NCBI GenBank assembly: GCA_017404955.1
Contig: JAFRBH010000001.1
Location: 1 to 64,000 of the forward strand
Length of the DNA stretch: 64,000 nt
DNA from: Candidatus Saccharimonadota bacterium
GTDB lineage: Bacteria > Patescibacteriota > Saccharimonadia > Saccharimonadales > Saccharimonadaceae
Direction of reading: 5' to 3'
Shown here: positions 1,723 to 10,150 of the stretch, one piece after another
Numbering within the stretch: the first letter of the stretch is position 1
How the letters are laid out: each line of letters begins with the position of its first letter
Notes under the pieces: model-generated
What the model was told of the DNA's origin: nothing
Seen by the model: only the letters and a program-made list of their open reading frames with translations
Database searches by the model: none
Translations under genes and position numbers: made by a program

Positions 1723-1751
1723 TTGACTTTCTCTCCTAAATATGCTAAAAT
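1723..1751 (+). promoter_or_regulatory. Sigma70-type promoter of the cargo operon
   Basis: A -35 box TTGACT (1723-1728) is separated by exactly 17 bases from a -10 box TAAAAT (1746-1751), which has an upstream TG extension (TATGCTAAAAT). Transcription should begin near 1758, leaving a leader of about 70 nt before the kinase-like gene. It separates the cargo operon from the phage genes before it, so the operon can be expressed from the lysogen. Confidence 0.8.
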
Positions 1752-1827
1752 ATACACAATGCGTCGTGTCTTTACGAGGCATAGTTATTTAATGTCTTGA
1801 TTCTACTATGGAAAGGAAGTGATTAGA

Positions 1828-2625
1828 TTGAGAGTCAGGAATATCGAAGTTGGGGATCGCATTGGCGAGGCCCCTAAGTTCCGTATCTACCTTGGCACGA
1901 TGGATGACGAGCAACCGGTAATCTTGAAGGTAGCGAAGACATTTGAAGATGGCGACATCCTCGCTGAGGAGGCCGGCAAATTCAATATTCTGCGCTCTTT
2001 CGAAGAACAGGTGGCAAAGTTTGAAGCGGACCAGGGTGGAAGTAACTCCCACTACGATTGGCTGTTCGCAAACCTGCTGTCCTCGTTCATGGAATCTACT
2101 CAAGGAGATCGCCGTATCAATGTCTTCGCGACACCTGATGTCGACCTCAGCAAGCTGATTCCTCTGACGAAGCTGCACGCTGAAGCCGAAATCGACACCC
2201 GCACCAGTATCTGGATTCTGGGACGTTTCTTCAAATTCTACGGCTTTTTCGAGCTGTTAGCGGCTGACGGAGACAACCCTATCGCCAGGTATCCAATCTT
2301 CTCGCCTGATGATTACCTCATTGGGCCGGAAAGACACCGTTTGATCTACTACAACTTCTCTGGAGATGTGGCTGATGTGGTGGCTACTGACTTTGTCAAA
2401 GCTACCTCTAAGTTTATTCTCAACTGGGTTGTTGCTGGAGATGACCCCGCTGAGCAGGAATATCTTGAATTGCTCAAGGACTTCTCGGAATATGGTCGCA
2501 ATTCGTTTGAGGAAGCACATGAAGACCTCTATGCGCTCGTAAAAAAGCACTGGGGGATTCAGTACTATCCTTTTACCTATCGCGATCGTAACACCATCAT
2601 CTGGAAAACTATTAAGGAGGATTGA
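1828..2625 (+). CDS. Degenerate protein-kinase-like protein, first gene of the vWA/AdSS operon
   Basis: The 265-residue protein has a kinase-like N-lobe: VILKVAK with Lys34 in the VxxK position and acidic residues at about 47-48 that could be the helix-C Glu. The region expected to hold the catalytic loop reads NPIARYPIFSPDDYLIG and the DFG position reads YYNFSGD, so the catalytic Asp and the metal Asp both appear lost. It may be a pseudokinase or adaptor. TTG 1828 is preferred because AAGGAAG lies eight bases upstream; GTG 1819 is too close to that box. Two bases separate its stop from the next ATG, and that gene's AAGGAGG box lies inside this frame. The kinase assignment is inference from pattern. 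Confidence 0.55.
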   Translation: MRVRNIEVGDRIGEAPKFRIYLGTMDDEQPVILKVAKTFEDGDILAEEAGKFNILRSFEEQVAKFEADQGGSNSHYDWLFANLLSSFMESTQGDRRINVFATPDVDLSKLIPLTKLHAEAEIDTRTSIWILGRFFKFYGFFELLAADGDNPIARYPIFSPDDYLIGPERHRLIYYNFSGDVADVVATDFVKATSKFILNWVVAGDDPAEQEYLELLKDFSEYGRNSFEEAHEDLYALVKKHWGIQYYPFTYRDRNTIIWKTIKED

Positions 2626-2627
2626 AA

Positions 2628-3722
2628 ATGGGACATCAGACTTTTTCGGTAGATAGCTACCGGCAGGCTCGCCGTGATTACGGCGTGACTCAGAGCACCA
2701 ACGTGACGAGGCAAGCTGAAGAACGCGCCAGGAGAACTGGTCGACTCAGCGAGATCGTCGATCCGGCCATTGGCCCGGTTCGTTTTTCCAAAATCCGGCT
2801 GAACCCCCATCAGAAGAAGTGGATCGCTACTCTCGGTTGCCCGATGGACATCGAGGTCAGTTGCGACACCACCGGCTCTATGGGCGGCGAAGTCGACACG
2901 GAAATGGCGGTTCTGCCCGACCTCTATGAGGCCGTGGCGAAAGTTCTGCCGGGTTACGATCCGCAGCTTTGCCTCGGTATCTTCGGCGATTGTGGCGACG
3001 ATTTCGTCATGTGTCGTCCGCAGTTCGAGATGGAAGCACCCAAGATCGTGAACTATCTCAAGGAAATGGCGCCTCAGCGTGGTGGATGTGGCAATCACGG
3101 GGAAGATCCCCAGTACGCCATGTTCGCGCGCGCTTATCTGACCGACGCCTATACCAATCGTATCGGCATCAAAGGCTATCACTTTATCGTTACCGATGAA
3201 CCCTACCATAACCATCTGCGTGAGGAGGAGATCCAGCGTATCTTCGGCAGTGACATTCTCAAGAATGAGCTGAAGGGGATGCGGCGTGAGCTTCCGTCCG
3301 TGAAGGCTATGGTGGCCGAGTTGAAGAAAAAAACGCACCAGTTTATTCTGGTGATGCGCGACCATTCTTATCACGATACGCTCGAAATGTGGCGTGATCT
3401 CTGTGGCGAGAAGTCCGTTATCGTCATCAACTCCACTCAGCAGTTACCGGCAGTTATTTCTGCCATCATTGGGCTGACGGAAGGCACCATCGAAGTCGTG
3501 GGCTTGAAGGAGCATCTCGGCAAGTATGGTGACTCTGAGCTGATCGCTCAGCTTTCCAACATCGACATCGGCGCGCAGGCGAAGCTTCGTCATGCGTTGC
3601 CCCATCCGGTTCCCAAAGCCGGGGATATCTTCGCCAATAAGGGCGATACCTGGCCGATTCAGCCGGGCGAATCTCCCGAAGAAGAACCCGCGGAGACTCC
3701 GGATCACATCGAGTACCTGTAA
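2628..3722 (+). CDS. vWA-domain protein of the cargo operon, 364 aa
   Basis: A von Willebrand A domain covers roughly residues 72-290. The metal-site motif is D80-T-T82-G-S84 (MDIEVSCDTTGSMGGE), followed by the acidic GDCGDD (120-125), the GGCGNHGED loop (152-160) and VTDE near residue 190. vWA domains bind Mg2+ and usually mediate protein assembly. The first 60 residues are charged and the last 45 are proline/acidic (GESPEEEPAETP). No signal peptide is present, so it is cytoplasmic. AAGGAGG precedes ATG 2628. GC is clearly higher than in the chromosome. It is the best conserved-looking part of the operon and probably its scaffold or switch. Confidence 0.8.
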   Translation: MGHQTFSVDSYRQARRDYGVTQSTNVTRQAEERARRTGRLSEIVDPAIGPVRFSKIRLNPHQKKWIATLGCPMDIEVSCDTTGSMGGEVDTEMAVLPDLYEAVAKVLPGYDPQLCLGIFGDCGDDFVMCRPQFEMEAPKIVNYLKEMAPQRGGCGNHGEDPQYAMFARAYLTDAYTNRIGIKGYHFIVTDEPYHNHLREEEIQRIFGSDILKNELKGMRRELPSVKAMVAELKKKTHQFILVMRDHSYHDTLEMWRDLCGEKSVIVINSTQQLPAVISAIIGLTEGTIEVVGLKEHLGKYGDSELIAQLSNIDIGAQAKLRHALPHPVPKAGDIFANKGDTWPIQPGESPEEEPAETPDHIEYL

Positions 3723-3770
3723 TCAAGATCTGTTAACAATTTGGTTTTTACAGACTCTAGGAGGTGTGTT

Positions 3771-5090
3771 ATGCTTGAGCGAATTTACGTCGTTACTGAC
3801 CTCGGTCCGGGTGACGGAGGAAAGGGCGGCATAGTTCATGCGCTCTCGCGCAAAATTGACGCTTCGGTCGTCATCAAGCGCGGAGGCGCACAAGGCTCTC
3901 ATGGCGTACGCACCTCCAACGGAGAAAGCTTTAATTTCTCACAATGGGGTTGCGGAACGCTTGAGGGTGTACCAACTTTTCTTTCCGAGCAAATGGTAAT
4001 TTCGCCAGTTGGACTCGGCAACGAATCGGAAGCCTTAAAGCGGCTCGGAATCTATGACCCATTCACGCTTTTAAGTGTCGACCCGTCCTGTATTTGCGCT
4101 ACGCCTTTTCATCGGATTTCTTCTCAACTTGAGGAGCTTCTGCTTGGAGAAAACCCGCGTGGCACGATTGGAACTGGTGTTGGACAAGCCTATCGTATGT
4201 ATAATGCTTTAGGTGAAGAAGCAACGATTCGAGCCTCTGAGCTTCAGGACCGTGAGGTTGTCCGCAGGAAACTCCAAAGGCAGCTCGATTGCTACAGAGA
4301 AAGGTATGCCAGAATCTCCACAGACGATGGTTTACCTGGCGACGCTGAGTTAATCGCCGAAAACCTTAGCTTGCTTCATGATGACGGCTTCTTGCCTTAT
4401 ACTCTTGATCTTTTTGAGAACATAGGTAAGAAGCTCCGATTTATGAGTCTTAGCGAAGTGGTAAAAGGCGATGGCTCGGCTGTCGTCGAATGTTCACATG
4501 GAGTTTTGACTGACGCTGAAACTGGATTAAAACCCCACGTCAGCGCAATTAGAACTCTTCCGAAGTTTACTACGGAAATGTTGAGAAGCGCCGGGTATAA
4601 CGGTAAGATAATTAACTATGCCGTTCATCGCGCCTATGAAATCCGACACGGAGCCGGCCCCATGCCGACTTATGATCCGGAGTTCACGACGCAAATGCTT
4701 CCCGGTAGCCATAAAGATGAGAATCGCTGGCAAGGCATAGTCCGAGCCGGAGCACTTGATTTGAATCTTTTGCGCTATGCTCTCGACACGAGTAGCGAAA
4801 CGAAGTTCGACGGGCTTTGCCTTACTTGGTTTGACCAAGTCTTAGCTTCCGGGCGAATCTGGCCACTCTGCGTTAGTTATAAAAACGCGCCGACGGACGG
4901 TGAACCCTATGCTGAGTTCCTAAAAAAGGCTGAGCCTACTACAATTGAATATTCCATTAAGAAACCCATCTCAAAGCGAGAACTTTTCGAATTTGTCGGG
5001 AATACTCTCGATGAGTTTATAAACGTTCCGCTGGAACTACTCTCAATTGGGCCAACCGAGCTGGATAAAATCAGTTCGAATAAAATTTAA
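3771..5090 (+). CDS. Divergent adenylosuccinate-synthetase-like protein
   Basis: The 439-residue protein follows the PurA fold from end to end. GDGGKGG (14-20) replaces the usual GDEGKGK, so the catalytic Asp is kept but the following Glu and final Lys are lost. SHG at 43-45 retains the catalytic His. GTIGTGVGQAY (131-141) matches GTTGRGIGPAY. CLTWFD (350-355) replaces CLTKLD, keeping the Asp that reads guanine. PurA joins IMP and aspartate using GTP. This copy is surrounded by phage and conflict-type genes rather than purine genes, so another nucleotide substrate or a signalling role is possible. AGGAGG six bases before ATG 3771 fixes the start. Confidence 0.8.
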   Translation: MLERIYVVTDLGPGDGGKGGIVHALSRKIDASVVIKRGGAQGSHGVRTSNGESFNFSQWGCGTLEGVPTFLSEQMVISPVGLGNESEALKRLGIYDPFTLLSVDPSCICATPFHRISSQLEELLLGENPRGTIGTGVGQAYRMYNALGEEATIRASELQDREVVRRKLQRQLDCYRERYARISTDDGLPGDAELIAENLSLLHDDGFLPYTLDLFENIGKKLRFMSLSEVVKGDGSAVVECSHGVLTDAETGLKPHVSAIRTLPKFTTEMLRSAGYNGKIINYAVHRAYEIRHGAGPMPTYDPEFTTQMLPGSHKDENRWQGIVRAGALDLNLLRYALDTSSETKFDGLCLTWFDQVLASGRIWPLCVSYKNAPTDGEPYAEFLKKAEPTTIEYSIKKPISKRELFEFVGNTLDEFINVPLELLSIGPTELDKISSNKI

Positions 5091-5104
5091 AGGAGGATAT
5101 ACCC

Positions 5105-6298
5105 ATGAGTGAAGAGATTAAGAATGCTGTTGCTACTGCTGAGACTGAGGCCGCCAAGGCCCCTGTCGTCGCGAACGATGTTCGCACCAAGCTCGCCGAA
5201 TACGGCGCCGACGAGGCGACCATCGATAAGGTCGTTTCCGAACTCGGCGTCGAGGAACTCGACGACCTGGCTTCCCTCGAGGTGGCCGATCTGACCGGCG
5301 CTGGCATGAAGCTCGCGAAAGCGCGCAAGCTCGTCGCTGAGTTGAAGAATACCAGCAAGCCCGCCGCTCCGGCTGTTGCCGCCGCGGAAACGCGCGCCAT
5401 CCAGAGCCAGTTTGAGGCTCTGTTGCCCTCGATCCCGACCGACGAGTCCTGGCTGAACGCCCTGAAGACCGGTGGTATCCTGAAGGTGGACGAGTCGTCC
5501 TACATCGCCGCCATTCGTGCGGCTCTGGCCGATCGCGCTGGCCTCTACAACGTTCCCGATGCGCTCTCCAAGGCTATGGAGAAGTATGCCGACGAAACCG
5601 AGGAGCAGGTCGATCCGACTTTCTACGCTCTGCGTAAGTCTTTGACCCGTCGCGCCTACGGCGACATCTTCGCCGCTATCGACGGTCTGGACGGCACGTT
5701 CATCACGGACGCCCGCCGCAAGGAGTTCCTGAGCCGCATCCGTGATACGCTCTGGCCGGCTATCGCCGAAAGCTATCGTACGTTGGACGGCTGGTATCAG
5801 ACCTGGCGTGCAAGTTTCTCCGATCCCTCTATGCTGATCGCGGCCATCGGCGGCGGTTTCAGTGGCGGAGCTGCTGGTATGAGTATGATTACTCCGCCCG
5901 ACACCGCTCAGCTGCATGACGCCGGCGACACGCTGGTCGATTCCATCAACCGCGTTTTCCGCGGTACTGGTGTTCAGGTCGCGGCCGCTATGGCTTATGA
6001 CGCCAACACCATCCGCAATACGCTCGAGGATCCGCGTCTGCCGTCCATGGTCGGCGTGAAGAACCGCGAGATGATGCTCAAGAAGATCGGCGCCAGCGTT
6101 TCCAGCAACTACATCCGCCTGGAGCAGAATCTGGTCAAGTACGTCCTGGCTTTCGCCAAGCACGACACGGTTACTTCCGATGTGGAAGTCAACTACTTCG
6201 TGGCTCTGTGGCAGCTGGGAACCCAGATCAACTGGGCTGAGCTGGGCGGCGGCGACGCCACCGGCATGACTGGTCTGACCGGCAAGCGCGTTCTGTAA
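5105..6298 (+). CDS. GC-rich helical protein of unknown function, last gene of cargo operon
   Basis: The 397-residue protein starts behind AAAGGAGG and ends just before a strong terminator. Residues 25-80 (VRTKLAEYGADEATIDKVVSELGVEEL) look like a small helical SAM/helix-hairpin module, followed by an alanine-rich linker. A longer domain has a glycine-rich turn (AAIGGGFSGGAAGMSM, about residues 247-262) and helices to the C-terminus. One sampled 60-base line is 67% GC against 40% in a line from the 8.6-kb gene. No family is recognised. The even expression signals suggest it works in fixed ratio with the three genes before it. Confidence 0.75.
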   Translation: MSEEIKNAVATAETEAAKAPVVANDVRTKLAEYGADEATIDKVVSELGVEELDDLASLEVADLTGAGMKLAKARKLVAELKNTSKPAAPAVAAAETRAIQSQFEALLPSIPTDESWLNALKTGGILKVDESSYIAAIRAALADRAGLYNVPDALSKAMEKYADETEEQVDPTFYALRKSLTRRAYGDIFAAIDGLDGTFITDARRKEFLSRIRDTLWPAIAESYRTLDGWYQTWRASFSDPSMLIAAIGGGFSGGAAGMSMITPPDTAQLHDAGDTLVDSINRVFRGTGVQVAAAMAYDANTIRNTLEDPRLPSMVGVKNREMMLKKIGASVSSNYIRLEQNLVKYVLAFAKHDTVTSDVEVNYFVALWQLGTQINWAELGGGDATGMTGLTGKRVL

Positions 6299-6321
6299 GA
6301 AGCCAACGCACCTATAAAATT

Positions 6322-6346
6322 AGGCCCCCATTCTGGGGGCCTTTTT
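6322..6346 (+). terminator. Intrinsic terminator closing the cargo operon
   Basis: AGGCCCCCA (6322-6330) pairs with TGGGGGCCT (6334-6342) around a three-base loop and runs into five T residues. It lies between the two convergent genes and closes the four-gene operon. Confidence 0.9.
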
Positions 6347-7560: not shown

Positions 7561-7577
7561 GTTAATGTACTCCTTTT

Positions 7578-7682: not shown

Positions 7683-8622
7683 ATGAATTGGTTAATCTAT
7701 ACTGCGGCTTCGGTATTGTCAGACTCATCTCGTATTTATATTGATAACTATATCTCCGATTATTACTACAAAGGCAAAGGTGCGGCTTCGCAGAAGTATT
7801 TCTATGCCATCGCCTTTATCGTATTGGCGATTATATTATTCGTTGTTGGCGTAGCCAACTCCTCTCTCTCTCTCTCTCTCGGTTGCGCCTATCGGCGCTC
7901 TAGCGCTATTCTTCATTTCTGGCCTAACCACTAGTTTCGCTGGCATACCTTATTATAAGGTTTTAGAGCTGGATAATTCGACCAACCTAGGTATTTTTGT
8001 GCAACTCGCGCCGATTCTTTATCTTATACTCGGCTGGCTATTTTTGGGTGACAGTATTTCGCTCCCACAGCTAATTGCATTTTTTGTAATCTTGGCCGCG
8101 CCACTACTAATAATTTTTTCAGCTAATAGACGAAAGGGCAAACGCGTGGAGCTAAAAGCCGCCGCTTTTGCGCTTCTTTATGTCGTGATGGTAGTTTCGG
8201 CAAATTTAATATTTGTCAAGCAAAACACGGCGGAGATTGCTTTTATTATCGAACTGGCGTTTACTTTCTTAGGTAAGGGTGTCGGCAACGCAATCATCAT
8301 GGCCTGTATGCCAAAATGGCGGAAGCGTCACAAGGCAGTAGTCAAAAGTAGCCACGGAAAAGTCTATCGACCATTGGTCTGCACATTTGCCACGTGTATT
8401 ATTAAGGATTTTGCGCAGTATAGCGCTATGATTGCCGCACCATCGATTGCTCTCGCTTCCGTGGTCGCCGATTCTTCCAAGCCAGTCGTTATTTTTCTTA
8501 TGGGTCTTATTGTAACTGCCATCTGGCCCAAATTTGGACGCGAGGACCTCAGTCGTCGCTCCATTATAGTCCACTTTGTTGCCACCATTTTAATAGTAAT
8601 CGGCATAATATTATTGCAATAA
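7683..8622 (+). CDS. EamA/DMT-type membrane transporter, out of frame at a (TC)9 tract
   Basis: Two overlapping parts make one protein. Bases 7683-7880 encode the first helices (ending VGVANSS). The rest, in another frame, continues APIGALALFFISG...FAGIPYYKVLEL...LAPILYLILGWLFLG and runs to 8622. The order, spacing and LGWLFLGDSIS motif fit ten-helix drug/metabolite transporters. The break falls exactly in (TC)9 at 7863-7880. One more TC unit, or two fewer, restores a single frame of about 313 residues. A TATAAT box at 7670-7675 puts the transcript start one base before ATG 7683. Substrate unknown. A sequencing error is the alternative. Confidence 0.75.
7863..7880 (+). repeat. (TC)9 dinucleotide repeat inside the transporter gene
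   Basis: Eighteen bases of perfect TC repeat follow AACTCC. The repeat sits at codon 61 of the transporter and is the exact point where the reading frame changes. Such tracts change length by replication slippage. In this copy the gene is off. Confidence 0.95.
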
Positions 8623-10072: not shown

Positions 10073-10150
10073 CAGGGTTCCAGTACTGGCCTCCCCGGGT
10101 GAGGTATAAGTACGCAATAATATCAATTTAACTCTCGTGGAGGTACGAGT

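Follow-up and report, generated by a model that had tools for sequence, protein, structure and literature searches.

A laterally moving cassette in a Saccharimonadota prophage and its conserved core of pseudokinase, vWA and PurA-family genes

PurZ of the Z-genome phages (phiVC8, S-2L) is a phage-borne paralogue of adenylosuccinate synthetase (PurA) that is closer to archaeal PurA and works with DatZ and MazZ. Genes 260−263 of the Bixzunavirus Sebata, a mycobacteriophage, are annotated as a Ser/Thr kinase, two hypothetical proteins and PurA, and are not treated as a system in the papers found. A homologous set of genes lies in a prophage of Candidatus Saccharimonadota bacterium (family Saccharimonadaceae), within the 64,000-nucleotide stretch analysed here (GCA_017404955.1, contig JAFRBH010000001.1, positions 1 to 64,000; hereafter the window). 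It comprises K (pseudokinase), V (vWA-domain protein) and P (PurA-family protein), followed by H (all-helical protein) and a convergent gene, NT (nucleotidyltransferase-like). The Sebata genes share the K-V-P order and, like those of the window, are found just downstream of lysis genes; unlike the window, they lack H and NT, and their K has an N-terminal J-domain-like part. The reading favoured here, tentatively and with somewhat less than even confidence, is that of a laterally moving K-V-P-H/NT cassette built on a K-V-P core, in which P, gated by V and K, would modify a 6-oxopurine nucleotide other than inosine monophosphate (IMP) in a manner linked to nicotinamide adenine dinucleotide (NAD) and ADP-ribose.

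Two further groups of described systems bear comparison. The Ter/TerY-P and NTP-dependent conflict systems likewise join a vWA protein, a kinase-fold protein and a nucleotide-making enzyme, and PRTase_3, HAD and R2K ATP-grasp genes are near some phage copies of the core; their synthetase is different and the kinase of K-V-P is a pseudokinase, and none of TerB, TerC, TerD, TelA or PP2C occurs among the flank families listed (25 of 44 families in one set and 25 of 86 in the other). NrtR regulons and NAD-salvage islands are similar in that NrtR, PncA, PncB, NadE, NUDIX and ADP-ribosylglycohydrolase genes adjoin several copies of the core; they differ in that no NAD role is known for K, V or P, and the NrtR link here is one of adjacency.

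The core triad in phages, actinobacteria and plasmids

Genomes of the Saccharibacteria type, large phages, actinobacteria and plasmids all keep the order of K, V and P. With V as bait, relatives are present on 164 viral contigs, which reach 345 kb; of the 80 best, 78 have P behind V and 58 have K ahead of it, always on the same strand. Relatives of V in genomes number at least 575, and the best 80, all from actinobacteria, include P in 79 loci and K in 49. This choice of bait makes V without P detectable, but not P without V. The same order is also found on plasmids of Tsukamurella, Rhodococcus and Agrobacterium. An earlier reading of the window made from its letters alone (the sequence-only reading) had named joint recurrence of the four genes from K to H in unrelated elements as support for it; K, V and P do so recur, and H does not, as neither H nor NT was found beside K-V-P outside the Saccharimonadaceae in the phage and actinobacterial loci sampled. 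The homologs do not mostly occur apart from each other, nor does the PurA-like gene stand beside ordinary purine genes, the two outcomes which that reading had named as contrary to it.

K-V-P is real and widespread, and is without a described function in the searched databases and accessible literature; it is apparently new as a system, and its parts belong to known superfamilies. No paper joins PurA, vWA and kinase as a system within the literature covered, subscription papers lying outside that scope so that an earlier description is possible; a survey of jumbo phages (PMC7824862) mentions neither adenylosuccinate nor PurA.

The altered PurA-family protein and its partners

P has full-length homology to PurA (PF00709; Pfam E 1e-33), in keeping with the earlier call of an adenylosuccinate-synthetase-like protein. 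Its signature is taken from a MAFFT alignment of 163 sequences in E. coli PurA numbering, with the normal chromosomal purA of Salmonella record AGRM01000005.1 (L048) used as reference only; that record is a Salmonella chromosome contig filed among phage records, where it inflates phage match counts. The catalytic residues Asp13, His41 and Lys16 and the GTP-site Asp333 of E. coli PurA are kept in P, the first three being present in 50 of 50 actinobacterial rows, in 75 of 75 viral rows and, with few exceptions, in those from the host's family. Unlike PurA, P is without the IMP-phosphate residues Asn38 (now Gln), Thr129 (Cys, Val or Ile) and Arg143 (lost); Val273 is replaced by His, and the aspartate loop TTGR(303)RR by [WYF]QG, eliminating Thr301, Arg303 and Arg305. 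In E. coli PurA, R303 makes contact both with the ribose 2'-O of IMP and with the aspartate (PMC8342488).

Plain purine salvage, in which a phage-encoded adenylosuccinate synthetase would supply AMP to an auxotrophic host, fits the membership of P in the PurA family and the finding of no second PurA in the host genome (718 kb, 99.6% complete). However, no PurB or any other Lyase_1 family protein is found in that genome either, so adenylosuccinate could not proceed to AMP and would be a dead end; ADSL_C occurs in 1 of 60 relatives, and the vWA and pseudokinase partners of P are constant. Because P lacks the IMP-phosphate and aspartate residues and the host lacks PurB, ordinary AMP synthesis by P is very unlikely; the salvage explanation as a whole is considered exceedingly improbable. 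A PurZ-type role in DNA-base modification (2-aminoadenine genomes) could be read from PHROGs, where P is filed in phrog_1211, named as a 2-aminoadenylosuccinate-type synthetase. PurZ of phiVC8 has Ser for Asp13 and keeps Val273, whereas P retains Asp13 and departs from PurZ at Val273 and in the aspartate loop; PDB profiles rank bacterial PurA (E 2e-56) far above PurZ (7e-6), and many copies of P lie in bacterial chromosomes, all of which makes the PurZ-type role highly improbable. By its residues, P is neither a normal PurA nor a PurZ.

V was expected to be a vWA protein, and profile-profile alignment (hhalign) to genuine vWA domains from relatives gives 87% probability (E 5e-7); the alignment is collinear through the DxTGS of the metal ion-dependent adhesion site (MIDAS), the GGG..ES segment and the final GDE, and control comparisons of vWA with the K, H, NT and P alignments are all below 1%. 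V has no match in Pfam, NCBIfam or PDB profiles and no PADLOC model; its PHROGs family, phrog_2971, has no match in control genomes, from which nothing is concluded. On this profile evidence V is a vWA-domain protein with an intact metal site.

The AlphaFold model of K (mean predicted local distance difference test, pLDDT, of 92) has a bilobal fold that Foldseek matches to protein kinases (E 2e-7, probability 1.0). The HRD motif, whose Asp is replaced across the family, reads HG[AI] in the phage and actinobacterial proteins, and DFG reads DW or similar; in the K of the window HRD is absent, the catalytic loop being gone altogether. The pseudokinase call of the sequence-only reading is borne out, as K is, by its modelled fold, a member of a pseudokinase family in which the kinase residues are lost. 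Sebata gp260 and the Agrobacterium K display weak DnaJ matches that include the HPD motif, and Pfam, NCBIfam and PADLOC contain no family or system for K. A second copy of K is located about 9 kb from the cassette in one locus (L069:14836-15681).

The model of H is all-helical (mean pLDDT 72), as had been expected; beyond the N-terminal domain it has no fold match in the PDB or in viral models, and no Pfam, NCBIfam or PADLOC family. Its weak matches to alpha-pore toxins (E 0.4−1, TM-score <0.25) are set aside as generic helix matches. The characteristic motif of NT is conserved in its family, of which 5 of 19 members match NTP_transf_2/Polbeta, weakly; two NT genes stand side by side in one locus (L073:2134-4811). 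It could be supposed that NT is a toxin and K-V-P-H its antidote or regulator, since a convergent NT with a Pol-beta motif is conserved beside the operon in the host's family; however, phage and actinobacterial copies of the core lack both NT and H, and the convergent layout is unlike that of typical toxin-antitoxin operons, which leaves this arrangement improbable.

Genomic neighbours and proposed function

The most consistent partners of the core are NrtR-like regulators and genes of NAD recycling or ADP-ribosyl hydrolysis, on account of which the pathway is proposed to be tied to NAD/ADP-ribose status. In 76 of the 80 actinobacterial loci P is accompanied by a protein here called N, which combines a winged helix of the NrtR type with a degenerate NUDIX box; ADP-ribose causes NrtR of M. 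smegmatis to leave DNA (PMC6800001). One locus of the host's family (L084) has the order NadE, NrtR, P-V-K, ADP-ribosylglycohydrolase, nicotinamidase-like PncA, nicotinate phosphoribosyltransferase PncB and NUDIX; two others of the family (L065 and L088) are similar NAD-salvage islands, and ADP-ribosylglycohydrolase is close to NT in L059/L060. Two types of P lie far apart in the tree, and both are found in such islands. Among genomes of the host's family NrtR and nicotinate phosphoribosyltransferase (NAPRTase) each occur in 31 of 295; three adjacencies of the module and NAPRTase within 7 kb, among 6 genomes taken as holding both, are far more than chance would give (binomial probability ~7e-5), a rough value given that part of the contigs are short and that the choice of genes to test followed inspection of the loci.

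Some viral copies have genes for NAMPT, NAPRTase, NADAR and nicotinamidase nearby, and R2K ATP-grasp and HAD/2H RNA-repair genes are also found close by. Twelve related genes adjoining P on viral contigs (L109:3910-4665, with relatives in L107-L125) form one cluster, whose representative matches R2K ATP-grasp peptide ligases. These neighbours, together with the large viral diversity and contig sizes, would suit phage counter-defence or host takeover, in which K-V-P repairs or replenishes nucleotides destroyed by NAD- or ATP-depleting defences of the host; with the core widely held by actinobacterial chromosomes, and with the host-family copies whose flanks were read being chromosomal, this function is quite unlikely.

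The main rival is anti-phage defence or superinfection exclusion, whereby entry of another phage would set off H as the effector through a nucleotide made by P or added by NT, with V and K as sensors. The cassette lies in a prophage between lysis genes and the integrase, has a scattered occurrence and lateral spread within the host's family (a P 97% identical to that of the window is found in another genus), pairs a nucleotidyltransferase with an uncharacterised helical partner, and has NAD-linked neighbours that resemble conflict systems. However, no PADLOC model matches any cassette gene, the one weak match (REase_II) being to an unrelated open reading frame at 10137−10487, and no defence genes stood out among the neighbour families listed. 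Furthermore, many Nocardia species have the V-P-N core in a chromosomal neighbourhood that they share, and the core is carried by lytic phages; a physiological or auxiliary function is favoured on these two grounds. Conserved residence in Nocardia chromosomes speaks against pure defence, and an anti-phage function is unproven and, overall, unlikely. The nucleotide signal that the sequence-only reading ascribed to P, and the adaptor and effector roles that it gave to the other proteins, are likewise putative; its interpretation is borne out in part.

In the favoured reading, the substrate of P would be a purine nucleotide that is not IMP; P would activate its 6-oxo group with GTP and join to it an amine other than aspartate, or aspartate held differently; V, through metal-dependent protein contact, and K, as a scaffold, may assemble or gate P, and the J-domain-like N-terminal part of the phage and actinobacterial K could recruit DnaK. 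The pathway would be under NAD/ADP-ribose control. In the cassette of the Saccharibacteria type, the HhH domain of H is a probable nucleic-acid binder and NT may use or counteract the product of P by nucleotidyl transfer, with the prophage carrying the cassette as host-fitness or conflict cargo. With its phosphate-binding residues lost, P might act on a substrate that has no free 5'-monophosphate, a dinucleotide for example, which is a guess.

Several observations weigh against this reading. K is evidently dispensable in some settings, as 22 of the viral loci and about 31 of the actinobacterial ones have no recognisable K; the 80 genome loci are all actinobacterial, leaving other phyla under-sampled. 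NAD genes occur in only a few phage neighbourhoods and are common in large phages anyway, and most copies in the host's family, that of the window included, have no adjoining NAD genes. Lastly, from a lost binding residue it can be predicted that the substrate differs, but not which it is; gene order and residues are shown, and reaction, substrate, nucleophile, complex and control are inferred.

A bolder proposal, considered rather unlikely, is that K-V-P constitutes a nucleotide pathway not known before, in which a ligase descended from PurA, with a vWA protein and a J-domain pseudokinase as its gate, would aminate the 6-oxopurine part of a substrate other than a free 5'-monophosphate (an ADP-ribose/NAD-type dinucleotide or an RNA end), yielding a new metabolite or signal common to phages, actinobacteria and ultra-small parasitic bacteria. 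That three genes keep a fixed order across hundreds of genomes and phages is a sign of basic nucleotide chemistry, which has escaped notice since its enzyme carries the annotation of an ordinary PurA; many annotations of adenylosuccinate synthetase in phages and actinobacteria may be wrong, and the signature of P provides a clear active-site pattern to look for. The triad would tie a reaction to NAD/ADP-ribose balance, a main battlefield of phages and bacteria, and the cassette is a mobile unit common to a prophage and to chromosomes of ultra-small parasitic bacteria.

Layout, expression signals and movement of the cassette

The sequence-only reading had described a promoter, four closely spaced genes with strong ribosome-binding sites and a terminator, between lysis genes and the integrase; all are found (Table 1), while the convergent fifth gene and the NAD/ADP-ribose neighbourhood were missed. 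The gaps between K, V, P and H are 2, 48 and 14 bp, and each gene has a clear Shine-Dalgarno sequence. Upstream are an endolysin with LysM (to 528) and a holin (528−749); downstream is a tyrosine integrase (10529−11437).

Table 1. Features of the cassette in the window
Feature	Position	Strand	Remarks
Promoter of the cassette	1723−1751	+	sigma-70-like, TTGACT-17-TAAAAT, TG before −10, 10/12
Leader hairpin	1759−1782	+	promoter-proximal, 5', T-rich stretch after; covaries between loci
K, pseudokinase	1828−2625	+	TTG start; protein-kinase fold, catalytic residues lost; phrog_3043 'kinase'
V, vWA-domain protein	2628−3722	+	intact MIDAS (DTTGS); phrog_2971
P, PurA-family protein	3771−5090	+	altered IMP-phosphate and aspartate pockets
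H, all-helical protein	5105−6298	+	N-terminal HhH/SAM-like domain resembling RAD51-N (residues ~25−83); remainder without known fold
Intrinsic terminator between H and NT	6322−6342	both strands score	bidirectional; 9-bp hairpin, 7 GC
NT, convergent nucleotidyltransferase-like protein	6357−7538	−	GGSxLKGYGxxxSDxD motif; conserved cassette member
NT promoter	7578−7606	−	TAGACA-17-TATAAT, 11/12; right edge of the transferred unit
Unit of transfer	1723−7607		edges bound the DNA match to unlinked copies in chromosomes

Of 40 loci from the host's family, about 26 have the full set of K-V-P-H and NT. When compared by blastn with copies at unrelated sites, one of them in another genus of the family, the match starts at 1723−1775 and ends at 7571−7607 in the closer copies (83−93% identity) and stays slightly inside these edges in more distant ones; the edges coincide with the promoters on the K and NT sides, and it follows from their position that the five genes are what moves. 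Flanks vary between copies, and those of the six host-family loci with flanking genes read look chromosomal, with genes for EF-Tu and ribosomal proteins in L050 and for RuvB and YebC in L055. The sequence-only reading had called the operon phage-borne, which applies to the copy of the window and to a near-identical relative with the same arrangement on an IMG/VR contig (L002), but not to these six. The P of the window has 97% identity to its counterpart in a genome of another genus, its sister in the tree, versus 46−92% within its own genus. Because of the varied flanks, the edges of similarity and this P of another genus, the sequences indicate that the cassette moves laterally, in this window inside a prophage; no recombinase or terminal repeat belonging to the cassette itself was found. 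A chromosomal site occupied by the full cassette in L067 has nothing of it but P in L081 (6775−8220) and L082 (6564−8036), and this P has lost its GDxGKG loop, an apparent decay of the cassette.

The TTG at 1828 is most likely the start codon of K, ATG standing at the same place in L061/L062. The cassette promoter is kept in L002, L049, L054 and L055, and the leader is also conserved in other copies; both sides of the hairpin change in 6 of 8 pairs between loci, with a covariation score of 0.330 versus 0.205 in shuffles (0 of 500 shuffles as high) that tops every slid control. As promoter and leader are conserved and the hairpin covaries, they are not considered to be due to chance, and the K-V-P-H transcript probably begins with this small hairpin; an Rfam search of the leader gave no match and therefore no known riboswitch family. 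Leaders of L051, L052, L059 and L063 also have a covarying hairpin, which in some relatives is followed by an attenuator-like run of 6−7 T. A CATTAACA-like motif is present before NT (window ~7560−7570, minus strand) and before the distant K genes of L064, L065, L072 and L088; this candidate is possibly the site of a shared regulator.

Between the cassette and the integrase, a 393-aa protein with a hydrophobic C-terminal region (8636−9817) is 98% conserved in L002 and has no family match in Pfam or NCBIfam. An EamA-like transporter gene of the window is split into two frames (7683−7934 and 7999−8622) and contains a (CT)9 tract at 7862−7880; the same tract and the same split are present in L002, and the gene resembles a phase-variable gene that is switched off.

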